Shown here: positions 2,170 to 14,253 of the stretch, piece after piece
Position numbering within the stretch: the stretch's first letter is position 1
Layout: each line of letters begins with the position of its first letter
NCBI GenBank assembly: GCA_003552985.1
Contig: PUPD01000292.1
Coordinates: 1-46,355 of the forward strand
Length of the DNA stretch: 46,355 bases
Source of the DNA: Spirochaetaceae bacterium
GTDB lineage: Bacteria; Spirochaetota; Spirochaetia; DSM-27196; SLAA01
Direction of reading: 5' to 3'
The notes under the pieces: generated by a model
The model's database searches: none
Seen by the model: only the letters and a program-made list of their open reading frames with translations
What the model was told of the DNA's origin: nothing
Position numbers and translations under genes: made by a program

Positions 2170-2788
2170 CCCGCAATTGACGCCGAATAGTATCACGGAC
2201 ACCCGCCTCGCGTCTGCGCTCCTCAAAGACCAGCAGATCGAGGTATCTGACCGTAAGCGGGCGCTCCAAACTGATTCTGACCGCGTCGTCCTCCCAGATC
2301 ATCTGTTGCGGATCAAGGCGATCCGGCTCACCGTAGCGTTCGCGAAGTGTGGTATACATCGTGAAGTAATCAAGCCGGCCTCGATTGAGATTGAGCGTGA
2401 TCGTGAAAAGACGATCCTCGTGAAACTGAAATACTGCGTGCTCGACAAACGGGCCACCCCGGGTTTCGACCAGATGCTGTTCCTCTCGCGGAACCAGAGA
2501 GACCTCCGGGTCACCACGGTACTGGAAACTTGGATCGGTCAGTAACCGCTGTTTGAGCTCCTCCAGCTCCAGGCCGAGGACCAAATTGCCGAAACCGCGC
2601 GGCAGGCGGCGCTCGAGCACTTCTTCCAGCGGCGAAAGCTCATCCAGCGGCTGCGGTTGCTGCGCCACCACCTGATACAGACCGAAGGGGCCTGCCGCCA
2701 GCAGCGCCACAACCACGAGCTGCGGCAGTGAAATCGGCATACTGCGCCGTCGCCCCTGCGTCCTGCGCTTCGACCTTGATTCGCACAT
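2147..2788 (-). CDS. Exported protein of unknown function
   Basis: A 213-aa protein whose family I do not recognise. A basic N-terminus leads into a hydrophobic segment (about residues 20-42, LPQLVVVALLAAGPFGLYQV), a signal peptide or membrane anchor. The remainder is charged, with alternating beta-like segments (AVFQFHEDRLFTITLNLNRG) and a phrase TTLRERYGEPDRLD that resembles periplasmic proteins tracking small substrates. ATG 2788 has a weak GGAAGG before it and a -10-like TATAAA on the minus strand at 2814-2809. ATG 2740, just before the hydrophobic segment, is the alternative. It is co-transcribed with the DUF192 gene and divergent from the PEGA gene. Confidence 0.7.
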   Translation of the reverse strand: MCESRSKRRTQGRRRSMPISLPQLVVVALLAAGPFGLYQVVAQQPQPLDELSPLEEVLERRLPRGFGNLVLGLELEELKQRLLTDPSFQYRGDPEVSLVPREEQHLVETRGGPFVEHAVFQFHEDRLFTITLNLNRGRLDYFTMYTTLRERYGEPDRLDPQQMIWEDDAVRISLERPLTVRYLDLLVFEERRREAGVRDTIRRQLRDEFLELF

Positions 2789-2830
2789 GTGCCCTTCCGT
2801 CTTCGCCCTTTATAACAGTATCGGCCGTTG

Positions 2831-2839
2831 TGCTATAGT
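2831..2839 (+). promoter_or_regulatory. Extended -10 promoter of the PEGA gene
   Basis: TGCTATAGT is an extended -10 (TGn followed by TATAGT, 2834-2839). No convincing -35 is visible, as is common for extended -10 promoters. The box ends 7 nt before ATG 2847 and no Shine-Dalgarno is present, so a leaderless or nearly leaderless mRNA is predicted. A minus-strand -10-like TATAAA (2814-2809) for the divergent gene lies close by. Confidence 0.45.
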
Positions 2840-2846
2840 AATACAT

Positions 2847-4529
2847 ATGCGTACTGCGCTCATAGTGTTGCTGCTGGCGGTCGTCTTTCCGGTGTTCGAG
2901 ACAATCGTCGCAAGCGAAATCAGCGTTCAGATCGAGCCCGGACTTTCGACCCTGTTCATCGACCCGGAGGACACCCCCCGCGCGGCAGCGCGCATCAGCG
3001 TCCGTGACCGCTCGTCCACCACGCGCAACCTGGACATCAGAACCATGCCTCAGAGCGCCCAGGTCTATGTCAACCAGGAGTACATTGGACGCGGCCCGGT
3101 TCGCCTTGAGAACCTCGAGTCCGGAACCTATCGAATTCGGGTCTCCCAGTCCGGCTACTATACGGCGCGCTATACGATCGTGCTTGACGATCCGCGCACC
3201 GCCGTGATCGAGATCGATCTGCGGCGCGTGACCGGTTACCTCTCGCTGTCCTCCAACCGTCCCAACACACAGTTCCTGATCGACGGAGAGCCGGCTGAGT
3301 CTCACTTGGTTGAGCTTCCGGTCGGCACCTATACCCTGCGGGCACGCAAGTTCGGATACCGTGATGCCGAACGTCGGATCCAAGTCAGCGAAAACGCGAC
3401 CACAAGGGTGAGTGCTGAGCTGAGTGAGGCACCGTTCGAGGTACGCCGGTTGAGACTGAGCCGTACACGGCTCAACCCGGCCAATCCCGGCGTTCTCGGC
3501 AGAGTCCAGGCCTCTTTTGAAGCGACCAATGTCGGCACTGCTCTGTTGGAGGTGATCGATGAGGACGACGAGGTTGTGTGGCGCCACCGATTTCCCGAGT
3601 TCGACCGGCGGGACAACTCGGTGACCTGGGCCGGAGTGGATCAGGAAGACCGGCCGGTTCCCGACGGTGCCTATCGACTCAGGCTTACCGGAAGACATCC
3701 GGACGGCACTGAGGCCAATCAGGAGGAGACGCGTCTGCGGGTAGACAGCACGCAGACGATCCGGTACCGCAGCACCTGGAGCGGAGCTCCGGGCCTGTTA
3801 TACGCCGGCAACACCGAGGTCCTCCCGGCGCGGGCGTTTCAGTTCTCCAGTATCGTGCTCGGCCATCGCCGATGGCTTGACGACACATCACGCGCCAGAA
3901 TACCGGTGCAGGCCGCCCTGCGGGTAGGCCTGCCTCTGCAGTTCGAGCTTGGAGCGCAGGCGACTGCCTTTGCGCACGACGAGTTTGAGCGCAACTACAT
4001 CAGCGGCGGAGCCTATCTGCGTAAGCGGTTTAGTCTGCGAGACGATCAGCGGCTGACCGCGGCGCTGACGTTGTCCGGAACAGGACAGAGCTATCCGGAG
4101 GACTCACGCAACCGCGCACCGGATACCGCTACCAACCCTGCCGGCTTCCGCCTCTCGGCGCCGTTTGAGTTGCGGCTCGAGGCGCTCCGCATGGTTCTGG
4201 CGCCTGAGCTCGCGGTTTCGCCGGCGCGGCCGGATTACGATGACGCCCCGCCCGGTGACAGGGACGCCGATCTTGGCGCCTGGGGCTACCTACGGGGCGG
4301 GGTGTATCTCGACCTCGGCGCGTTCCAGACCGGAGCCTCGGTCGCGCTGCGCTCCGAGCCCTTCGATACCGGAGCGCTGCGTCTTGATACTCCGCTGGCT
4401 GCAGGACTGGAGGCTCATGTCATGGTGCCGCGCACGCAGATCGTTCTGTCGGCGTTCGGCGGGGGCGAGTTTGCCGCCCCGGACGATTACTATCTGTTCG
4501 GCGGGTTAGGGCTTGGGATAGTGCACTAA
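2847..4529 (+). CDS. PEGA-domain envelope protein with beta-rich C-terminus
   Basis: Predicted cell-envelope protein of 560 aa. It has a signal peptide (residues 1-23), then two PEGA-type repeats (about 52-105 and 125-190; AQVYVNQEYIGRGPVRLENL and QFLIDGEPAESHLVELPVG). A FlgD-like Ig module follows (about 215-310; RPVPDGAYRLRLTGRHPDG). The C-terminal 230 residues alternate hydrophobic and polar residues like an outer-membrane beta-barrel, but the last residue is His rather than an aromatic. The start at 2847 is chosen for the signal peptide and the promoter just upstream. Its stop overlaps that of the convergent zinc-ribbon gene by 4 nt. Function unknown; PEGA modules are usually surface-associated. 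Confidence 0.8.
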   Translation: MRTALIVLLLAVVFPVFETIVASEISVQIEPGLSTLFIDPEDTPRAAARISVRDRSSTTRNLDIRTMPQSAQVYVNQEYIGRGPVRLENLESGTYRIRVSQSGYYTARYTIVLDDPRTAVIEIDLRRVTGYLSLSSNRPNTQFLIDGEPAESHLVELPVGTYTLRARKFGYRDAERRIQVSENATTRVSAELSEAPFEVRRLRLSRTRLNPANPGVLGRVQASFEATNVGTALLEVIDEDDEVVWRHRFPEFDRRDNSVTWAGVDQEDRPVPDGAYRLRLTGRHPDGTEANQEETRLRVDSTQTIRYRSTWSGAPGLLYAGNTEVLPARAFQFSSIVLGHRRWLDDTSRARIPVQAALRVGLPLQFELGAQATAFAHDEFERNYISGGAYLRKRFSLRDDQRLTAALTLSGTGQSYPEDSRNRAPDTATNPAGFRLSAPFELRLEALRMVLAPELAVSPARPDYDDAPPGDRDADLGAWGYLRGGVYLDLGAFQTGASVALRSEPFDTGALRLDTPLAAGLEAHVMVPRTQIVLSAFGGGEFAAPDDYYLFGGLGLGIVH

Positions 4530-4912
4530 AGGTGAATGTAGATCGCCACCAGCACGAGAAACGCAAGGCCCAGGATCGACATCGTAAGCGCGAACAGCCA
4601 GCCGGGACGCTCCGGGCGTTTTCGTTGCCGATATCGTACGTGTTGGAGCGCCTGGGAGCGATTGCCGGGCGAGCTTCCCGGCGAACGCGGCAGATCGATG
4701 ACCTCGAACTGCCGATCAGGCATGCTCTCGCCGGTGTAGCCGCAATTGGGACAGCCGGCGAGGAAGAGCTGCACCTCCCCGCTGAACTCGCATATCGGAC
4801 ACTTGACCGCGGAAAAGAACCGGCCGCAGTGTGGACAAACCCGGGCGCTGGGGCCTACCGTCTTCCCGCAGTTCTCGCAATAGAAGCTCACACTGTTCGC
4901 CATGCCGTTCAC
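4526..4912 (-). CDS. Zinc-ribbon protein with C-terminal membrane anchor
   Basis: A 128-aa protein with four zinc-knuckle pairs: CENCG, CPHCG, CPIC and CPNCG, forming two zinc ribbons in the first 60 residues. A basic Arg/Pro linker follows, then one C-terminal transmembrane helix (about 105-126, FALTMSILGLAFLVLVAIYI). The ribbons are probably cytoplasmic. It begins with GTG at 4912, whose last bases overlap the upstream TGA (GTGA), indicating coupling to the sensor phosphatase gene; ATG 4903 is an alternative. The tight coupling suggests a function linked to that phosphatase, but nothing in the sequence shows what it is. Confidence 0.8.
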   Translation of the reverse strand: MNGMANSVSFYCENCGKTVGPSARVCPHCGRFFSAVKCPICEFSGEVQLFLAGCPNCGYTGESMPDRQFEVIDLPRSPGSSPGNRSQALQHVRYRQRKRPERPGWLFALTMSILGLAFLVLVAIYIHL

Positions 4913-7900
4913 TTGCGCCGGATCGCCAGCATAGTCAGGTCATCGTACTGTTCGTCTTCCACCAGATGCGTGTATTCGTTGTAGAGCGAGCTCGCATCGC
5001 TCTCAGGTCTCGCATTACTGAAGAACAGGTTGTACTCCTCGAAATGCGCTTTGAGGAAGTCGTCGATCTTCTTGTCCACAGCCACGCGTTGGTCCCGTCC
5101 GGCGCTTGGGTCGCGGTAGAGGCGGAACACCTTCTCCACCGCCATCAGCGCCAGCGTGGTGTTGCTCGCGGTCGGCTCACAGTCGCTGAAATCGAAGGTC
5201 AGCACCTCGTCCGGATCAGGGCTGTACACCCGCTCGAGCGTATAGCGTCCACCAACCTGCACGGCGGCGACGATATCGTGAATACGGGTGAGAGACAGCT
5301 CCTCATCGCCAACCCCCTCTTCGTCGGTAATTGCCTGATAGTTCGGTCCGCGGAAGGAGCGTTTGGCCTCTTCCACGCCGTCGGTGAAGAACAGCGCAAG
5401 ATCGCCGTGCTCAAGCGTGATGCTGATTTCGGGAAAGCCGTTCGGCGCCATGCTGCTTGGAAAGACGCCTGCCGCCGGCGTTTCGGGCATCGACATCTGG
5501 ACCATCCGTCCGCGCGCACGCTTGTACACGTGCAGTTGATTATCGCCTGCGTTGCAGAGAATCATCTTGCCGGTCGCGGCGTTGTAGAGCCCCACGGTCA
5601 AGGCGGCAAACCGGCCCTTGAAGCCGCGCTCTTCAAGCAGGTCATTGATGCGATACACGAGTTTGCTGAGCCGCAGTCCATGCGTCTTCAGCGACCAATC
5701 GCTGAAGAAATCGAGAAAGATCGTCGCTACCTCGACCATGATCAAAGCTGCCGGCACGCCCTTGCCGGCAACATCACATTTGATCAATCCGTAGTGCTGT
5801 TCGTCGAGCTTGCGATAGTCGAAATAGTCTCCTGAAACCCCCTTGGCGCCTTCGTAGTAGCCGAACACCTCAACCTCAGGCAGGTCCTGATAGCCGGTCG
5901 TCATCTTCTGCCCCGAGCTCGTCACATCAAGCGGAATGAACATCTTCTGAACTTCCTTACCCACCGTGAGGTCTTTGCTCGTCTGTGCCGCCTTCACGAG
6001 CCCCTGCGTCATTGAGTTCACCGTGTCGGCCAAGAGCGAAAGCTCGTCCCGGGTACGCACGTTGATCAAATGGTTGTACAGTTTCTCCTTGTCCTCGGTG
6101 TCGCGGATCACCTCCACGCCCTGCACCAGCCGGTTAATCGGAATAACGACGATCGTGGCGAGAATCATTGCGCCGATTACCCCGGCGACCATCGCGCCCA
6201 CCGCCACAATGACGGTGCTGATAATCAGATCACGTGTCGTAGCATCGATCTCCTGCAGGATCAGGTCGGTGGCGACTCCCAGCCGCACCATGCCGCGATA
6301 GTAGCGCGCTTCCTCCGGAACCTCGCCGACCACCCGGAACAGCACCGGTTTATAGAAGATGTACTCGGTGGTCTCCCGGCTCAGGTCGGCGGCGTCGAAC
6401 TCGGGATAGCTGTGAATGCCTCGTGCAACCTCGGCAAGCACCTCGCTCACCCGGCTTTCGAGCTCACCGCGGATTTCGTCGATCTCCTCCAGCTCCGCTT
6501 GCGCTTCCGGCGTATCCATCAATACCAGCTCGCTGATACGGTCGGTGAACTCGTCGATCTGGCGCGGCGTGTTGCCGAGCTCTTCGCGAGCACGCTCGTT
6601 GATCTCCTGCTCGAGCTCCGGAATACGTTCCGATACCGGATCCTCGAGCCGCGACTGACCGAACGGCTGAAACTCCCCGGTATTGATCTCCGGAAGAATC
6701 CTGCGTCCGGCAACCGCTTCGCTGTACTCATCGGTCCCGATTGTCTCGATCGCCGGGTCGTTCGTCGACCAGATATAGTCGAAGTTGGTTGCATCGTCGC
6801 CTCGTCCGGTAACGGTGAGATAGAGCACCTCGTCCATCACCTCAGTCTGGCGGGTCAACTGCGCGAGCTCGATGATGTTGTCCTGTGGACTATCCAGAAG
6901 CTGACCCGACTGGGTGACGAGGCTTTCCAGAAGCACCTCCACGCGCTGCTCCAGGCCGCGTGCGAGTGTGCGCTCCTGACGCTCCAACGCGGTGGAGCCG
7001 AGAAAAAAGGCTACCAACACAACGACCGCAACCACGAGAAGCACAACGAAAAACGCGAACTTAATCCGCAGCCCTACTCCGCGTCTCTTCATCTTCTTGA
7101 TCCTCTCCAGCTTCTGCTGCGACGGCAACGGCTTGCCGGCCAACAGCGCCTTGACTTCCATCTCTAAGAGCCGGGACTCGGCGATCAATCCCGCGACCCG
7201 GGTACCGGAAAACGCCACCACCAGTGCCAAAAGCAACGCCGCACCGGCCATCATGACTTCTGAGGGCGCCAGTCCGAACCGCGCGCGGGGGTCGGCTGCG
7301 AAACGCGGCACGTAGCGCACCGTGTAATTGCCGAAACTGATATGCCCGCTCTCCTCAAACGCAAGGCTCCGCGGCGCAAAATGCACGCCCCGCTGCGAGT
7401 GCCGCAACCCAATCTGGTACTCCCCGGTCCGCACGCGCTCGATCAGGACGTCGCTGATGCGTTGATCGCTTTCCAGTGCGAACTGGCCATCCTCGGCACG
7501 GAAGACATAGTCGTACGGTTCGCTGCCTTCACGGTCGAGGATCACCTCCTCGATCTGTCCTTCAGCCATGAACCCGCGGCCGAGAATCTGCAGGCTGTAG
7601 CGGCCGAAAAGATCCCGGCTACTGGAAATGTTCCAGATCTCGGTGGTCGGGATGAACTTGTTGGTTCGGAACACCAGCGTTCTCGGCTCACCTATGTTGC
7701 CGACATCGTCGATTGGCCTTACGCTCAGCGCGTACAGCCCGTCGTCGATATTGCGACGCGCAATACGCGGCTCACGCGTCAGCACCGTCTCAGGCGGCAC
7801 CGGCACGTCCAGCTCCTCCGGAGCAATTTCGAGCTCAGGGCCGCCCATGCGTGTAAGCGAAACGGAGTACCCATCAATGTGATCGTCATCCGGTGGTTCC

Positions 7901-9489
7901 CAGGACAGTGTGAAGGTGTTCGACAGTAGATACCCGTCATCATCAAGAGGCGGGGGCGCAAACACCACCGGGTCCGGCGGAGTGCGGTCGCGCTCATAGA
8001 AGATGGTCGTGGGAACCGACCAGTTACCGGCGCGGTCCTTGGTGACAATCCGGAAGTACCACGGGCCGTCTTCGTCGGCCTCAAGAGTTACACGCCGGGT
8101 ATCGGGACCGTACCGCGGCTCGAGCGGCACCTCGGCATCCGGATTTCGGCTCCAGACATAGTTGTACGCGGCGATACCTGAGGTATCAGGCGGCGGTTGC
8201 CACGCAATCTCCACCTCATCGCGCCGCGAACGGCCGCCGGCGGTGAAGTTCACCGGGATAACCCGCGGCGGGCTCACGCTCTGGTCAGGCTCCAAGTAGG
8301 TCAGCGCGGTCCGGTTCGGCGCCACCCAGTTGTGCCAGAACACGTGGATACGATCGCCGAAGCGCATCGGCGTTGCAAAGCGTGACGCGCCCGAAATGAG
8401 ACTCAGGCTCTCCTCCATCCAGGTTTCGCCTACCCGTCGCGACACAAAGACGTTGCTGTTACCGCGCGGATTATCAAACCAAAAGATGTAGAGCTCATCA
8501 CGGTCCACGAGGATACGAGGATTGTTCGCTACCTCCAACCGTGTAGTCACCGCTTCCGGTTCCTGGACGAGCTCGCCTTCGTTATCGAGCTCAGCATAGT
8601 ATACCTGCGGTGCTGCGCCCGCAAGCCTCCGTTCCCAGGCAAGCGCCAGCCGCCCGTCTATATTCTCCAGGACCGGACGCTGATTATCGTAGCTGAAGTA
8701 ATCCTCAGCTTCGTTGGGGTCGTAGAACTCGGTTACGCGTCGGGGCTCACTCCAGGTTCGCCCGCTGTCTTCACTGTACTTGTGATACAGCTGGTAATTG
8801 ACGCGCTCGCGCGGATCGACGCTCTGAAACACCACGTGTTCGCGGCCATTCAGGGACGCATGCGTCGGCAGGAAGTTCAGCCCGAGCTCGCGCTGCTCGA
8901 CAAGCGCCTGCAGCTCGCTCCAGTCGCTACCGTCGCTGGAGGTGCTGTACAGGATACTCTGGATCAGCCCGATATTCTGGCTGACGAATAGTAACAGCTC
9001 ACCGTCCTCGGTCTTGAACAGCCGCGGCGAGACGATCGTCGTCTCCGACTGAACCCCGCCGACATCCTCGAAGCTAAGCCCCCGGTCGGTGGAGCGCATT
9101 ACGCGTGTTTCGGTCGCCGAGGTCGCCACCGCCACATAGAGGTGATCGCGGTCGTCGATGCGAGCCGAGAATACAACCGGCGGCGATTCACGCCGGTACT
9201 GTACCGGACCGACGAAGCGTCGCTCGGTTTGCCAGTTGCGACCGTCGACAGTGCGTCGCAGGCTGAGATAGATCTCTCCACGATTGTCCCCGGTGGGCAC
9301 GATCTCCTGGTAAACGACTACCGCGAACTCCTCGCCGACATGGCTTTCGGGAAACCGGGCGTTCTCGGTGTCGACGTTCCTCGGCGGCTCGAAGAACAGC
9401 ATCTCCGCCTCAACCACGACCGCCGAAACGAGGCCGATGAGACATGCGAGGATGAGTAGTTGCAGCCGTCGATCTGCTCTGATCCGCAC
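4909..9489 (-). CDS. Giant membrane sensor with SpoIIE-type PP2C phosphatase
   Basis: A 1526-aa transmembrane protein. It has a signal peptide (1-28), an extracytoplasmic BNR/sialidase-like beta-propeller (about 30-430, with repeats such as YSEDSGRTWSEP and SSDGSDWSE), and two FN3-like modules (about 430-625). A first TM (about 745-770) leads to a basic cytoplasmic loop, a second TM (805-835), a second extracytoplasmic sensor (835-1085), a third TM (1087-1112), HAMP, and a C-terminal SpoIIE/PP2C domain (from about 1185; SGDYFDY, CDVAGKGVPAAL, LFFTDGVEEAK, YDDLTMLAI). It should dephosphorylate a serine/threonine-phosphorylated partner such as an STAS protein in response to envelope signals. 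No STAS or anti-sigma gene lies in the window. The start codon is GTG. It follows the helical-repeat gene by 28 nt and overlaps the zinc-ribbon gene. Confidence 0.88.
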   Translation of the reverse strand: MRIRADRRLQLLILACLIGLVSAVVVEAEMLFFEPPRNVDTENARFPESHVGEEFAVVVYQEIVPTGDNRGEIYLSLRRTVDGRNWQTERRFVGPVQYRRESPPVVFSARIDDRDHLYVAVATSATETRVMRSTDRGLSFEDVGGVQSETTIVSPRLFKTEDGELLLFVSQNIGLIQSILYSTSSDGSDWSELQALVEQRELGLNFLPTHASLNGREHVVFQSVDPRERVNYQLYHKYSEDSGRTWSEPRRVTEFYDPNEAEDYFSYDNQRPVLENIDGRLALAWERRLAGAAPQVYYAELDNEGELVQEPEAVTTRLEVANNPRILVDRDELYIFWFDNPRGNSNVFVSRRVGETWMEESLSLISGASRFATPMRFGDRIHVFWHNWVAPNRTALTYLEPDQSVSPPRVIPVNFTAGGRSRRDEVEIAWQPPPDTSGIAAYNYVWSRNPDAEVPLEPRYGPDTRRVTLEADEDGPWYFRIVTKDRAGNWSVPTTIFYERDRTPPDPVVFAPPPLDDDGYLLSNTFTLSWEPPDDDHIDGYSVSLTRMGGPELEIAPEELDVPVPPETVLTREPRIARRNIDDGLYALSVRPIDDVGNIGEPRTLVFRTNKFIPTTEIWNISSSRDLFGRYSLQILGRGFMAEGQIEEVILDREGSEPYDYVFRAEDGQFALESDQRISDVLIERVRTGEYQIGLRHSQRGVHFAPRSLAFEESGHISFGNYTVRYVPRFAADPRARFGLAPSEVMMAGAALLLALVVAFSGTRVAGLIAESRLLEMEVKALLAGKPLPSQQKLERIKKMKRRGVGLRIKFAFFVVLLVVAVVVLVAFFLGSTALERQERTLARGLEQRVEVLLESLVTQSGQLLDSPQDNIIELAQLTRQTEVMDEVLYLTVTGRGDDATNFDYIWSTNDPAIETIGTDEYSEAVAGRRILPEINTGEFQPFGQSRLEDPVSERIPELEQEINERAREELGNTPRQIDEFTDRISELVLMDTPEAQAELEEIDEIRGELESRVSEVLAEVARGIHSYPEFDAADLSRETTEYIFYKPVLFRVVGEVPEEARYYRGMVRLGVATDLILQEIDATTRDLIISTVIVAVGAMVAGVIGAMILATIVVIPINRLVQGVEVIRDTEDKEKLYNHLINVRTRDELSLLADTVNSMTQGLVKAAQTSKDLTVGKEVQKMFIPLDVTSSGQKMTTGYQDLPEVEVFGYYEGAKGVSGDYFDYRKLDEQHYGLIKCDVAGKGVPAALIMVEVATIFLDFFSDWSLKTHGLRLSKLVYRINDLLEERGFKGRFAALTVGLYNAATGKMILCNAGDNQLHVYKRARGRMVQMSMPETPAAGVFPSSMAPNGFPEISITLEHGDLALFFTDGVEEAKRSFRGPNYQAITDEEGVGDEELSLTRIHDIVAAVQVGGRYTLERVYSPDPDEVLTFDFSDCEPTASNTTLALMAVEKVFRLYRDPSAGRDQRVAVDKKIDDFLKAHFEEYNLFFSNARPESDASSLYNEYTHLVEDEQYDDLTMLAIRRK

Positions 9490-9517
9490 CGTTCTTCGTT
9501 CCTCTAACTCTCCAGGC

Positions 9518-12500
9518 TCAGATCCCCAGCCGCGAGCTTATGCGGCGGTGCAAACGCTGCAACGGTGGATACGCGGCGTTGGCATCGTCCTGCATCAGAT
9601 TTTGCACGATAGAGTATGCCTGAGCAACATTGCCCTGCACGAACAGCGCCTCGGCACGGCGGTACTGCTGCTCCGCGGTTGAGGACAGCGCCACGGTCGC
9701 CTGCCCGCCGGTGCGGATCCGAAGCTCATCGAGCAGCGCCTGCGCCACGCTGTTTTGCGGGTTCAACTCGAGCGCCTCTTCAAGCAGCTGCATCGCGGCA
9801 CGGTCCTGCCCAAGACCGCCACCGGCTATCCCCTGTGCCTGTGCCAGCAGCTCGTTCGACTGTTCTTCCTGTGCCGCCGTGACCGGATCGGGACGGATGC
9901 CGAGCTCGATCTCCAACTCTACGATCATGTCCTCCAATCCGGGATAGTCGGGATTGATCTCATGCAACACCTCGAGCTCGGTCAGCGTGCTCATCGGATC
10001 CACGGCATCGCGCTGTGCGACCACGTCCTCAAACCGGCGTTCAAACACCCGGTCGAAGTTCTCACCTTCACGAAACTCGATAATACGCAGCTGCAGGAGT
10101 CGCGCTTCCCAGTTGTTCGGTCGCACCGCGATCACGTTCTCGAGATTACGTTCGGCGCGGTCCAGGTATCGCTCCGACTCGTCCGCAGCGTCGTTCTGAT
10201 ACAACTCACGCCCGCGTTCGAAATCATCCTGCGCGATACTCAAGTAGTTCGAAAGTATCGGAAACAACGGGTCCGCCTCGGTGAGCGTGCGTTCGTCCTC
10301 GAAGTTCAGCGCGGCGTTCACCAGACCCAGCAGGCGCTCGATCTCGGCGTTTTCGGTTACGTTCGTCAGCTCCCACAGCCGCCGGGCCTCCAGGAGCTCC
10401 TCCTGCGCGGCCAGATACTCTTCCTCGTTGTAGAGCTGGTTGGCCGCCTGAATCCGTTGGCGCACTTCCTGCACTATACGTTGGTTCTGCGCTTCCTGGA
10501 TCTCCACGCCCAGTGCCACGATGCGACGGTCGATCTCCTCTCGAAACTCGGGATCATCCTGCAGCTCCAGCGCGTCGTAAAACCTGCTACGCGCCTCTTC
10601 CCAGAGCTCGCGGGCGCGTTCCACGTCCAGGTCGGCGATCGCCTGTTCGGTCTGCGCGAGGAGGTCTTCGCCTTCAGCGCGAAGCTCCATCGACCGAGCA
10701 AGATAGCCCTGACTACGTTCCAGCGCCGCGACTGCCTGCACCGAGAAAGAGTCCACTAGATCGGCGAGCTCCTGCATGCGTTCAATCCAGATCTCAACAC
10801 CCGGCTCACCCCGAACCTCCTCACCGGCGGTGTTGAGATGCTCAGCATAACCGCGCACCCTCGGCCCGAGCTGGTCAAGCTGCGGCAACAGCGGCTCCAG
10901 CAATTCACGCGCCTGCGCCGGATAGCTGAGAACCAGCGGCTCGATCTCTTCGTCCTCCGGCAGCAGGTCATCCTCGGGGAGCTCCAGCTGCGGCAGGTCG
11001 TGCGGGTCCATCTCGGCCGGCGCGGGCAGCTCCTGCCCAACATCCGGCGTAACCGCCGCGCCGGGTGCCTCAAACCCCGGCGGAAGCTCACGGCCTTCCA
11101 GGTAGGCGATAGCGAGCTCGTAATCATCTGCGATTGCTGCAAAGTTCCCGGCGGCATCGCTATACTGAAGATCAGCCAGCGCGACCAGCGTTTCACCCTC
11201 GTCCCGCCGCAGTCGCTGCTCGTACTCGGCAAGCCGAGTGCGTGTGGCGCTCACAACCTCTTCGCTCCTCGCGGTGCGCAGCTCGGCAAGCTCGGTTCCC
11301 AGGAGCTCGGCCCGCCCCTCGGCCAGCTCGAGTCGCTGCCCGGCCGCCCTGCGCCCGCCGGATAACTCCTGAAGCCCCCCGAGCAGCACGACCCGCCGCT
11401 GCTCATAGAGCTCACGCGGATCAGTGGCTTCGGAGGGCTCCACCAGAGGAGCGACCCGCGCCATGGCAAGCGAGCGCGCAACGTCATGAAAGGCTCGTGC
11501 CTGCTCGCGCTGCAGCTGCGCCTCCAGGAAATAACGCGCAACACCGATACGAATGCCGCCCATAAGCTCCAGCAGCGCTTCGCGATCGTCAGGCATGAGC
11601 AGCTCGCCGGGCGCGTCGATCTCCAGCTCAACGCCGGCATCTTCTGGATCGCCGTGGGCGGCGCCGCCGGAGCGCCGCAATGTGGCGGCAACCACTGTCT
11701 CGAAGTCGCGCTCGGCCTCCAAAAAGCGTGCATCCGCCTCGATGTAACGCTCCTCGTCCAGCTGATCGAGGCCCGCGCTGATCCGCTCGCGCGCCACCTC
11801 TTCCAAAGGCTCACGAAACTCGCTGATTGCCTCATCGAGCATCAGCGAGGTTGCCCCGAGCACTCCCTGATAGCGCCGTTGCTCGAAACTCCCGACCGAC
11901 AGGATTCGCAGAAAGTTCACGTGCCAGTCCACCGGCTCGTCCGGAAAGTGGTCGGCCACCTCGTCGCGCGCCGCAGCGGCTTCATCGGCAGCTTCGGCCA
12001 GGGCCTCCTCCAGCACCACTACCTCGTCAAGGGCCGTGCTTAGGGCACGCTGAGCCTGTGCCAGGCGCTCGCTGGTTCGCTCATCCGGATAGCGTTGCGC
12101 CTCATCCACTGCGGCACGGACCAGCTCTACCCGCGTGATGACGGCCTCGGTCCGCGCGATAAGCTCCTCGCGCAGGGAGGCGATGCGCTCGCCGAACGCG
12201 TCGGCGAACCCGCGCTCCTCGAAGACCCCTCGGCGAATTTCGAAGCCTTCTTGATAGCGTTCGAGCGCCTCCGCGTATCGACGTTCCTCGAGCAGACCGG
12301 CGGCATCGCGTAGAATTCGGATTACCATCTCGCGGTCGTAGGCAAGCTGGGCGATGGCACGGGCACTCTCCAGTTGCTGTCGTACCTCGGGATTGGGATG
12401 CGCTTCCAGTCTCTCCATCTCCTCTATGATCGACAGCGTAGTCTCAATGTCCTCCGGTGACTCGTCGAGGTGGTCGAGCAGCCGCTCAAATAGCTCGTTA

Positions 12501-12739
12501 TAGTCGGTCCGTACCGCCCTGATGCGGCGCAGGAGGCGCTCGGCCTCGTCTATCCTGTCCGGCTCGGTATCGATTATGTCGTGCAGGACCACCACTGCTT
12601 CGTTGTAGCGGCCCTCGGCGATGAGATCCTCGGCCATGGCGATTGGATCTTCGGGACGGCCCGCGCCGAACACAGGTTGCCCGCTGACTACGAGGAGAAC
12701 GCAGAACGCTGATGCTATGGCGAATCGCCGAAGACTCAC
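9518..12739 (-). CDS. Exported helical-repeat (TPR-like) protein
   Basis: A long exported protein (1073 aa), almost entirely helical and rich in Glu, Ala, Leu and Arg. Recurrent TPR-like units such as AEDLIAEGRYNEAVVVLHDI, YAEALERYQEGF and AMQLLEEALELNPQNSVA alternate with coiled-coil stretches. The GTG at 12739 is preferred over the GTG at 12784: it directly precedes a clean signal peptide (SLRRFAIASAFCVLLVVSG) and has GGAGG 12 nt upstream. A -10-like TATTAT lies at 12791-12786. It is first in an operon with the sensor phosphatase (28-nt gap), so it may be a periplasmic scaffold or partner for that protein's external part. That role is inference. Confidence 0.75.
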   Translation of the reverse strand: MSLRRFAIASAFCVLLVVSGQPVFGAGRPEDPIAMAEDLIAEGRYNEAVVVLHDIIDTEPDRIDEAERLLRRIRAVRTDYNELFERLLDHLDESPEDIETTLSIIEEMERLEAHPNPEVRQQLESARAIAQLAYDREMVIRILRDAAGLLEERRYAEALERYQEGFEIRRGVFEERGFADAFGERIASLREELIARTEAVITRVELVRAAVDEAQRYPDERTSERLAQAQRALSTALDEVVVLEEALAEAADEAAAARDEVADHFPDEPVDWHVNFLRILSVGSFEQRRYQGVLGATSLMLDEAISEFREPLEEVARERISAGLDQLDEERYIEADARFLEAERDFETVVAATLRRSGGAAHGDPEDAGVELEIDAPGELLMPDDREALLELMGGIRIGVARYFLEAQLQREQARAFHDVARSLAMARVAPLVEPSEATDPRELYEQRRVVLLGGLQELSGGRRAAGQRLELAEGRAELLGTELAELRTARSEEVVSATRTRLAEYEQRLRRDEGETLVALADLQYSDAAGNFAAIADDYELAIAYLEGRELPPGFEAPGAAVTPDVGQELPAPAEMDPHDLPQLELPEDDLLPEDEEIEPLVLSYPAQARELLEPLLPQLDQLGPRVRGYAEHLNTAGEEVRGEPGVEIWIERMQELADLVDSFSVQAVAALERSQGYLARSMELRAEGEDLLAQTEQAIADLDVERARELWEEARSRFYDALELQDDPEFREEIDRRIVALGVEIQEAQNQRIVQEVRQRIQAANQLYNEEEYLAAQEELLEARRLWELTNVTENAEIERLLGLVNAALNFEDERTLTEADPLFPILSNYLSIAQDDFERGRELYQNDAADESERYLDRAERNLENVIAVRPNNWEARLLQLRIIEFREGENFDRVFERRFEDVVAQRDAVDPMSTLTELEVLHEINPDYPGLEDMIVELEIELGIRPDPVTAAQEEQSNELLAQAQGIAGGGLGQDRAAMQLLEEALELNPQNSVAQALLDELRIRTGGQATVALSSTAEQQYRRAEALFVQGNVAQAYSIVQNLMQDDANAAYPPLQRLHRRISSRLGI

Positions 12740-12884
12740 GTGGGTGTCAGCCCTCCACCCCTTTTTTAGGCCCACTTTTATCACTATAATACTACACGAA
12801 ATATCGGCATAACTACCGCCGAGGCCAAACCTACGACGGGCAGTTGCGCTCCCCCGGTGTAGATAATCACATATTCTGGCGATA

Positions 12885-12890
12885 TATTAT
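12885..12890 (+). promoter_or_regulatory. Candidate -10 box of the UPF0164 gene
   Basis: TATTAT lies in an AT-rich stretch and ends 10 nt before ATG 12901. No good -35 is visible and there is no Shine-Dalgarno before the ATG. It resembles the other promoter-adjacent starts in the window but is one of the weaker examples. Confidence 0.3.
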
Positions 12891-12900
12891 ACGGGTTGCC

Positions 12901-14253
12901 ATGAAGATACTGTCGGCGTTTTTCCTGCTCTTAATCATCGCCGCCTCTCCGGCGTCGGCTGACACCTTCGCCGACGCCTACGGCACGATCGCCGACTTCT
13001 TCGGAACATCGGCCGCGCGGCGCACCGGTCTTACCGCCTTCCCGGTACTTACTATACCGGTCGGGGGGCGTTACGAAGGGCTCGGCACCGCCTATACGGC
13101 GGTCGCGCGTGACACCGGGTTCTTCGACGCCAATCCGGCGGCGAGCGCCTCGATCGAACGCACCGAGCTCGCGCTTCAGCATACCAACCTGATCGCCGAC
13201 GCAAACATGGAGTCTATCGCCTACACGAGCCGGTTCACCAACTTCGGGTTCGGTGCAGCCGGCAAGTTTCTGCACGTTCCGTTCACCGAGTACGACGCGT
13301 TCGGCGACCAGGTCACCACAATGCGGTATACCGAGAGCGTCGCGGGCGTAAACGCGTCGTACCGCCTGTTCAACTCGTTCTACCGTTACGGGCTCGCCGT
13401 CGGCGCCAATATCAAGGGCGCCTATCGGCACATACCGGATCGGATCGAGCCCGATCAATCGGCCTTTGCCTATATGGCTGACTTCGGCCTGCTCACCCGC
13501 TTCAATTTTCTGAAATTTCACGCCTCACGCGAACGTAACTTCTCGCTTGGGCTCACCGCGCGCAATATCGGGCCCCCGGTCCAGGACGATCCCCTGCCGA
13601 GCACGCTCACCGCCGGGCTCGCCTACCGCCCGCTGCGGCCGGTTGAGCTTTCGTTCGATTTTCAGCTTCCGATCCAACCGTTTACCGATCTTCCGGCCGA
13701 GCCGCCCGCCTATGCCGGCGGCGTATCCGCCCTGGTAACCGAGTTCTTCGGGCTGCACACCGGGTTTCTCCTGAAAGGCGGCAACCCGCGCGCAACAATC
13801 GGGGGCATGCTGGATTTCGAAAGCACGCGCTTCGTTGCCAACTATACCCTGGACATGACGACGCAGGTCGGGACGGTCGATCGATTCAGCGTCGAAGCTG
13901 CGTTCAAGTTCGGCGACCGCGGGCGGGCCGAGCGCGCGCAGCGAGCCGAGGAGTACTACCTCGAAGCGTTGCTTGCGTTTGCCGACGGCGACCTCACCCG
14001 CACCGTCGAGCTCTCCGAACGGGCGCTCGAGGTCGACAGTGCCTTCACCCCCGCCGAGGAAACGCTCAAGTCCGCCGAACGCACGCTCGCGATGCAGCGG
14101 CGGCTCGAAGCAATCCCGCTCGATGAGACTATACCGGTACCCGATTTCGACGAGGATTTCGAAGAAGAGCTCGAAGAACGCTTCGAGCACCAGCAAGATC
14201 CGGACGAACCGTTCAACGACGATATAGAGGTTGAAGGCCCCGCCAACGCCTGA
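12901..14253 (+). CDS. UPF0164-family outer-membrane protein with TPR tail
   Basis: A 450-aa exported protein with signal peptide MKILSAFFLLLIIAASPASA. The body (about 40-350) begins with a pattern typical of UPF0164/FadL-like spirochaetal barrels: GGRYEGLGTAYTAVARDTGF followed by NPAASA. Many amphipathic beta-strands follow. The last 95 residues are helical and contain a TPR-like unit (YYLEALLAFADGDLTRTVEL) and a very acidic end. In Treponema the family is considered an outer-membrane, FadL-like group with possible roles in uptake of hydrophobic nutrients; the substrate is unknown. The start at 12901 is fixed by the signal peptide. It is divergent from the helical-repeat operon. Confidence 0.8.
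   Translation: MKILSAFFLLLIIAASPASADTFADAYGTIADFFGTSAARRTGLTAFPVLTIPVGGRYEGLGTAYTAVARDTGFFDANPAASASIERTELALQHTNLIADANMESIAYTSRFTNFGFGAAGKFLHVPFTEYDAFGDQVTTMRYTESVAGVNASYRLFNSFYRYGLAVGANIKGAYRHIPDRIEPDQSAFAYMADFGLLTRFNFLKFHASRERNFSLGLTARNIGPPVQDDPLPSTLTAGLAYRPLRPVELSFDFQLPIQPFTDLPAEPPAYAGGVSALVTEFFGLHTGFLLKGGNPRATIGGMLDFESTRFVANYTLDMTTQVGTVDRFSVEAAFKFGDRGRAERAQRAEEYYLEALLAFADGDLTRTVELSERALEVDSAFTPAEETLKSAERTLAMQRRLEAIPLDETIPVPDFDEDFEEELEERFEHQQDPDEPFNDDIEVEGPANA

Follow-up and report, generated by a model that had tools for sequence, protein, structure and literature searches.

The 46,355-nucleotide stretch of DNA analyzed here (hereafter the window) carries on its minus strand a gene for an exported helical-repeat protein (TPR), directly followed by the gene for a giant sensor phosphatase (PHOS), and comparison among spirochaetes shows that TPR and PHOS are a true conserved pair, whose order is kept in homologues beyond chance. 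A divergent gene of the UPF0164 family, which the original prediction made from the sequence of the window had left out, co-occurs with TPR-PHOS and is a better third member than the zinc-ribbon gene (ZNR) to which that prediction had given the place. We read the locus, with a probability of about one half, as a signalling chain through the whole envelope, made up of an outer-membrane barrel, the periplasmic TPR, the propeller phosphatase and a STAS switch. The features concerned are the following.

4909..9489, minus strand: PHOS, sensor phosphatase, 1526 aa, GTG start.
9518..12739, minus strand: TPR, exported helical-repeat protein; GTG start at 12739, 1073 aa (1088 aa if read from 12784, the start of the longest frame).
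12740..12900, no strand assigned: region separating the divergent TPR and UPF0164 genes, with one sigma-70-like match on the plus strand at 12860-12888.
12844..14253, plus strand: UPF0164/FadL-like protein, C-terminal tail TPR-like; ATG 12901 is its likely start; PF03687 161.9 bits (cut-off 21.4).

Gene order was followed in a collection set of 80 PHOS loci from one genome-collection scan and in a class set of 46 PHOS loci of the window's class (40 propeller-bearing, 6 with a short PHOS), the latter drawn from a panel of 296 genomes of the phylum Spirochaetota that was searched with profiles for PHOS, TPR, ZNR and PF03687. TPR was found directly upstream of PHOS in 74 of the 75 collection-set loci testable for it (the other 5 had less than 600 bases upstream at a contig edge). 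The sole exception was L181, in which a full PHOS at 2674-7437 has no TPR upstream; in two further loci (L165 and L195) TPR is present inside over-long open reading frame (ORF) calls of PHOS. All 40 class-set loci with a propeller-bearing PHOS had TPR upstream, the misses (6/46) being the loci with short PHOS. Among 72 TPR-PHOS pairs the two genes overlapped by 4 nt in 41 and lay no more than 60 nt apart in 68. Across the panel, propeller-reaching PHOS and strong TPR matches picked out identical sets of 54 class genomes, as read by eye from the PHOS and TPR tables, in which PHOS matches were listed to E ~1e-33, covering every strong match; the class-set flanks cover 40 of these 54 full-PHOS genomes and all six short-PHOS genomes. 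The nearest collection records, most of them metagenome-assembled, come from Spirochaetaceae, Spirochaetales and Treponema, and the window's own genome comprises 3.93 Mb in 305 contigs and is 91.5% complete. No description of TPR-PHOS as a conserved pair was found in the portion of the open PubMed Central (PMC) literature consulted.

PHOS is, as had been predicted, a giant transmembrane phosphatase. Its hydrophobic segments lie at the N-terminus and at residues 738-771, 803-837, 1086-1123 and 1240-1259, the last of which falls within the PP2C domain and was not counted as membrane-spanning. Pfam matches over cut-off were obtained for BNR_2 (45 bits, cut-off 31.4) and SpoIIE/PP2C (PF07228; 85.4 bits, cut-off 25), and matches just under cut-off for fn3 (24.3, cut-off 25) and HAMP (19, cut-off 25). 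The probable layout is a signal peptide, a beta-propeller, fn3-like domains, a transmembrane segment (TM), a linker, a TM, a second periplasmic sensor, a TM, HAMP and a SpoIIE-type PP2C domain; in this arrangement the propeller/fn3 part and the second sensor would be periplasmic, the linker between the first two TMs short and basic, and HAMP and PP2C inside the cell. Domain placement is unsure because the predicted structure of residues 27-1180, while reaching a pLDDT of 86.5, had a low pTM of 0.51. The aspartates at 1221, 1239, 1316, 1363, 1370, 1516 and 1517 are conserved in 17 of 17 aligned rows, and we take these columns to be the PP2C motif aspartates. The Pfam table of PHOS contains no histidine kinase domain, and kinase-named NCBIfam matches were confined to residues 1063-1175, which correspond to the last TM and HAMP. 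As a separate observation on the PP2C domain, a stretch of 144-171 residues (1371-1515 in the window) separates its TDG and DDLT motifs, and the SpoIIE Pfam match ends early in PHOS orthologues, which is not so in most of the other SpoIIE proteins that these genomes encode.

The description of the upstream product as an exported TPR-like protein of 1073 aa likewise agrees with our results, as it has a single hydrophobic segment, at the N-terminus, and its predicted structure (1073 residues; pLDDT 85.0, pTM 0.52) is a helical solenoid, helical throughout except for two 3-residue strands. Comparison of this model with the PDB returned generic helical solenoid and TPR proteins only, at low TM-scores. 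All Pfam TPR models were under cut-off on the window protein (TPR_19 at 20.1 bits vs 25), and were over cut-off in both of the distant TPR relatives that were scanned.

Judged by its family, the product of the UPF0164 gene is probably an outer-membrane barrel. The gene was divergent and adjoined TPR in 53 of the 55 collection-set loci testable for it (25/80 were dropped; the misses are L169 and L194) and in 39 of 40 class-set loci (the miss is L061), the six short-PHOS loci, which have no TPR, being dropped from the latter count. In a control, collection loci in which TPR is complete were compared, position by position, for their largest family of homologues: just beyond TPR it accounted for 47/50 loci, and at the other positions examined for 15/55, 10/40 and 14/48. 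PF03687 matches occurred in 95 of the 296 genomes; among the sampled genomes of the class, UPF0164 was confined to 51 of the 54 that carry TPR-PHOS. The tail of the protein, which contains a TPR-like motif, was reached in 91/91 complete class ORFs by a profile partly built from those same ORFs. Papers on the T. pallidum members call the UPF0164 family FadL, and one of them describes 3 of 5 T. pallidum FadL orthologues as extended at the C-terminus by a periplasmic helical region that holds a TPR motif (PMC8407342). The sigma-70-like match in the intergenic region is a sequence match alone, with 0.2 such matches expected in the scanned stretch.

The three genes are also absent together. Six class genomes carry a PHOS of 741-900 aa without the propeller and are without TPR and UPF0164 genome-wide (one weak 51-position TPR match in G288 was not counted). 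A tree of the PHOS core was built from 53 rows with the propeller left out, by a short search, and labelled for TPR and UPF0164 from the profile searches and neighbour counts. On this tree the propeller requires five changes, and in 4 independent pairs on well-supported branches TPR went the same way as the propeller in 4 and UPF0164 in 4 (3 in a few random pairings).

The proposed link to a STAS switch comes from distant relatives. In the 16 loci of the distant set (L205-L220; L223 and L224, with weak TPR matches, are outside this count) the phosphatase is a HAMP-PP2C protein of ~530 aa, and a 641-770 aa protein is encoded directly upstream in 13/16; taken as a group, these 13 proteins matched the window's TPR family in a profile comparison (P 98.9, E 1.3e-17, 343 columns). 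A STAS gene, recognized with a profile built in this analysis from three loci, adjoins the phosphatase in 14/16, the other two ending at a contig edge. Four of the 16 have the propeller as a gene of its own upstream of TPR, recognized by its match to that part of PHOS (model positions within 1-608 of 1517); in L207 the BNR_2 match of this gene, 26.2 bits, is under the cut-off of 31.4. Parts that are encoded apart in one genome and as a fusion in another typically function together. Six additional distant loci (L079, L082, L083, L084, L221 and L222) contain PHOS, STAS and HATPase genes in this order, and Pfam confirms STAS and HATPase in L079 and L083 and STAS only in L082. Because STAS genes, with or without HATPase genes, adjoin the phosphatase in these relatives, a STAS substrate is to be expected for PHOS.

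Some details of the distant loci are recorded here in their own right. The STAS proteins at L082:6829-7407 and L083:12374-12940, downstream of PHOS and beside a HATPase gene, have a zinc-ribbon-like C-terminal region with two CxxC motifs, for which the zinc-ribbon Pfam matches were under cut-off. Past the STAS gene, L205, L207, L208, L213 and L219 share genes of similar sizes, one of ~435-461 aa and one of ~301-302 aa. A separate match to the PHOS propeller (model 155-610) at L223:2849-5074 stands beside a weak TPR-like match; the contig, 10 kb long, shows no PP2C frame.

In the signalling chain that we propose, the UPF0164 protein, a FadL-like outer-membrane barrel, would hang its TPR-like tail into the periplasm, where the large TPR protein would connect it with the propeller/fn3-like portion of the inner-membrane PHOS. 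The barrel's state or cargo, or that of the periplasm, could then be relayed through the second sensor and HAMP of PHOS to its cytoplasmic PP2C domain, which would dephosphorylate a STAS-domain protein and so reset a partner switch of the RsbV/RsbW type. We infer the contacts in this chain, its membrane topology, its signal, its STAS substrate in the window's class and its output. It is possible, at somewhat less than even odds, that the locus represents a new trans-envelope route, in which the state of a FadL-type barrel passes by way of a TPR-like tail, a solenoid of ~1000 residues and a propeller PP2C phosphatase to a STAS switch, and that this route is old in Spirochaetia and survived genome reduction in T. 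pallidum.

Several observations weigh against a chain of this kind. Gene order and shared loss can also be explained by shared regulation, and a sign test on the four independent pairs gives p 0.125, the minimum possible with four. A tie between TPR and the propeller that always holds was rejected, as it is found in the window's class and fails in the distant genomes, where TPR proteins stand beside ~530 aa phosphatases without a propeller. Three of the 54 class genomes (G218, G236 and G290) have TPR-PHOS and no UPF0164 match, UPF0164 did not adjoin TPR-PHOS in either of the two distant loci testable for it, and in L057 the tail is present in only 1 of 3 UPF0164 ORFs. On the side of the switch, the window's genome encodes two SpoIIE proteins, and its one STAS match, on contig C64, lies beside the other SpoIIE phosphatase; the RsbW-like protein of the class had no match in this genome at its 91.5% completeness; and the RsbV/RsbW pair is found as well where PHOS is lacking, for example in G086, G153, G157, G221, G231, G268 and G269.

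Co-occurrence does not single out a STAS partner for PHOS, since the highly conserved RsbV/RsbW-like pair is spread through much of the class and exists without PHOS too: at E <= 1e-6 the class RsbV was matched in 70/80 genomes, weak paralogues included, and the RsbW-like gene in 64/80. No STAS and HATPase genes stand beside PHOS in the window, such neighbours being found only in the distant relatives. PF13581 is matched 18 times in the window's genome. As a side observation, L229 and L231 contain a highly conserved module of the class, consisting of a SpoIIE phosphatase, a STAS protein and an RsbW-like protein, with GAF-like matches under cut-off in L231.

Another explanation is that TPR and PHOS form a two-part sensor to which UPF0164 has no physical link, being no more than a neighbour that is co-regulated or acts downstream, such as a switch-controlled transporter. 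The distant TPR-phosphatase loci without UPF0164 alongside and the three class genomes that have TPR-PHOS without it are consistent with this explanation, and divergent genes are frequently targets of regulation. We nevertheless consider it unlikely, in that each of the six short-PHOS genomes lacks UPF0164 along with TPR and the propeller and the TPR-like motif in its tail would suit binding. An improbable second alternative is that the set is mainly a machine for outer-membrane transport or assembly, in which TPR takes the cargo of FadL or aids barrel folding and PHOS regulates the process. The family match of UPF0164 and the FadL name used in the papers point this way, and large periplasmic helical proteins are often adaptors; on the other side, PHOS is built of the parts of signalling proteins, and distant genomes have TPR-phosphatase pairs with no neighbouring barrel.

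The original prediction had joined TPR, PHOS and ZNR, three minus-strand ORFs that lie where it placed them, with 28 nt between TPR and PHOS and a 4-nt GTGA shared by PHOS and ZNR, into one unit of scaffold, phosphatase and cytoplasmic zinc-ribbon effector. The joining of TPR to PHOS is upheld by the counts given above, and the place of ZNR as a third part is not.

4526..4912, minus strand: ZNR, tail-anchored double zinc-ribbon protein, 128 aa, GTG start; abuts the TPR-PHOS unit and is judged to lie outside it.

ZNR is a tail-anchored zinc-ribbon protein as had been described, with one C-terminal hydrophobic segment and four CxxC motifs. Its gene was directly downstream of PHOS in 15/71 collection-set loci (9/80 dropped) and 4/45 class-set loci (1 dropped), and within 3 kb of PHOS in 32/71 and 8/45, respectively. 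These collection-set counts, the 4-nt overlap in the window and the zinc-ribbon-like C-terminal region of the L082 and L083 STAS proteins beside PHOS, albeit under Pfam cut-offs, argue for ZNR as part of the unit. Against this, ZNR is single-copy in 111/296 genomes, including genomes of group f8 (0.9-1.9 Mb) that show neither PHOS nor TPR, and it has recurring neighbours of its own, namely homologues of the gene at 2147-2788, DUF192 and often XseA; in L226 (ZNR, a 2147-like gene and DUF192) and in L234 this cluster occurs with PHOS absent or ~50 kb away. ZNR as the third part was therefore rejected, and a zinc-ribbon effector of the complex, contradicted by the f8 genomes and by these neighbours, is very improbable. 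Conservation of the gene order in other spirochaetes thus extends to TPR-PHOS, and ZNR homologues are scattered, which the original prediction had itself named as the outcome that would speak against the three-gene unit.

We take the f8 genomes to be Borreliaceae. None of them is among the 69 of 296 genomes matched by the TPR profile, nor among the PHOS or UPF0164 matches in this panel. This absence led us to reject a role of TPR in a periplasmic flagellar collar (FlcA type) or motor scaffold, with PHOS regulating motility, which we regard as scarcely credible: its support consists of one weak fold match, to the Campylobacter flagellar scaffold chain 9hmf_K (E 0.01, rank 17), and of a TPR protein among the Borrelia collar proteins (PMC8609358).

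The locus has a probable counterpart in T. pallidum. Locus L057 of G056, a genome that we take, from its gene order among other grounds, to be T. pallidum, contains PHOS, TPR and then three divergent UPF0164 ORFs, and on the same grounds we presume that PHOS corresponds to TP0854, TPR to TP0855 and the UPF0164 genes to TP0856, TP0858 and TP0859. G056 has kept an RsbV-like gene (58% identity) and has no RsbW-like match at E <= 1e-6. In the literature, TPANIC_0854, 0855, 0856, 0858 and 0859 appear as gene names (PMC10600179); TP0854 is treated as a SpoIIE phosphatase or a sialidase-like candidate (PMC5956850, PMC10600179), with Phyre2 models of TPANIC_0854 on sialidases at 98.9-99.5 confidence and 17.0-25.8 coverage (PMC5956850); and TP0855 is listed as a putative outer-membrane protein (OMP), abundant in each of the two strains under comparison (PMC5015957, PMC10600179, PMC11668736). 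The T. pallidum set has the same order as the other loci and differs in having been published, as far as these sources go, as separate items, namely a SpoIIE phosphatase or sialidase-like protein, a hypothetical putative OMP and the UPF0164 proteins; no paper joining TP0854, TP0855 and the UPF0164 genes was found among the open PMC literature consulted, and neither TP0854 nor TP0855 is mentioned in the main text of PMC8407342 as available.

It is most improbable that these annotations are right as they stand, that is, that PHOS is a sialidase-type virulence factor and TPR an outer-membrane protein. Besides the Phyre2 models and the putative-OMP lists, Foldseek also matches the window's propeller to sialidases, from rank 6 (1wcq, E 3.6e-11); on the other side, the best VIA alignments of the propeller are to CylK (Z 30.1, 3.6 A, 343 residues) and the lectin PLL4 (Z 29.8, 2.3 A, 299 residues), from a list for residues 27-1180 with good coverage at model residues 4-378 only, the C-terminus of PHOS is a SpoIIE phosphatase domain, and TPR is predicted to be helical, the model of this window orthologue of TP0855 containing no transmembrane beta-barrel and only the two short strands.

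The proposed chain resembles three known systems in part. RsbU/SpoIIE-type PP2C phosphatases (PF07228) share with PHOS the SpoIIE domain, the conserved aspartates and a HAMP-like region in front, and their partner switching is mirrored by the STAS and HATPase_c_2 genes adjoining the phosphatase in the distant relatives; PHOS differs in its very large periplasmic propeller-fn3 part, its second sensor, the adjacent gene for a periplasmic TPR protein, the stretch of 144-171 residues ahead of the last DD motif and the lack of a STAS gene alongside in the window. The window locus is accordingly not filed as a member of a partner-switching operon, though it may work like one. The Bacteroides hybrid two-component systems (BT4663) likewise have a periplasmic propeller sensor on an inner-membrane signalling protein (Foldseek matched BT4663, 4a2m, to the window's propeller at E 1.5e-9, with a TM-score of only 0.10-0.13), whereas the output of PHOS is a PP2C phosphatase and not a histidine kinase, and a TPR gene lies next door. 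With the FecA-FecR type, the proposed likeness is an outer-membrane barrel with a periplasmic appendage that signals to an inner-membrane regulator; here the barrel would be FadL-like and not a TonB receptor, the putative bridge a large TPR protein and the output a phosphatase.

Spirochaete envelopes are poorly understood, and a conserved TPR and sensor phosphatase back-to-back with the UPF0164 family offer a concrete, testable partner for the FadL tails. The FadL-like proteins of the UPF0164 family are described as candidate syphilis vaccine antigens; if the proposed chain is true, the tails of these proteins gain a partner. It would also favour re-examining the listings of TP0854 as sialidase-like and of TP0855 as a putative OMP.

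The remaining features of the window that bear on ZNR are its neighbours, the whole cluster abutting PHOS.

24-1310: XseA.
1681-2226: DUF192.
2147-2788: the gene whose homologues recur beside ZNR.
2787-4529: a PEGA-domain protein, convergent with ZNR, homologues of which lie near ZNR in many ZNR loci.

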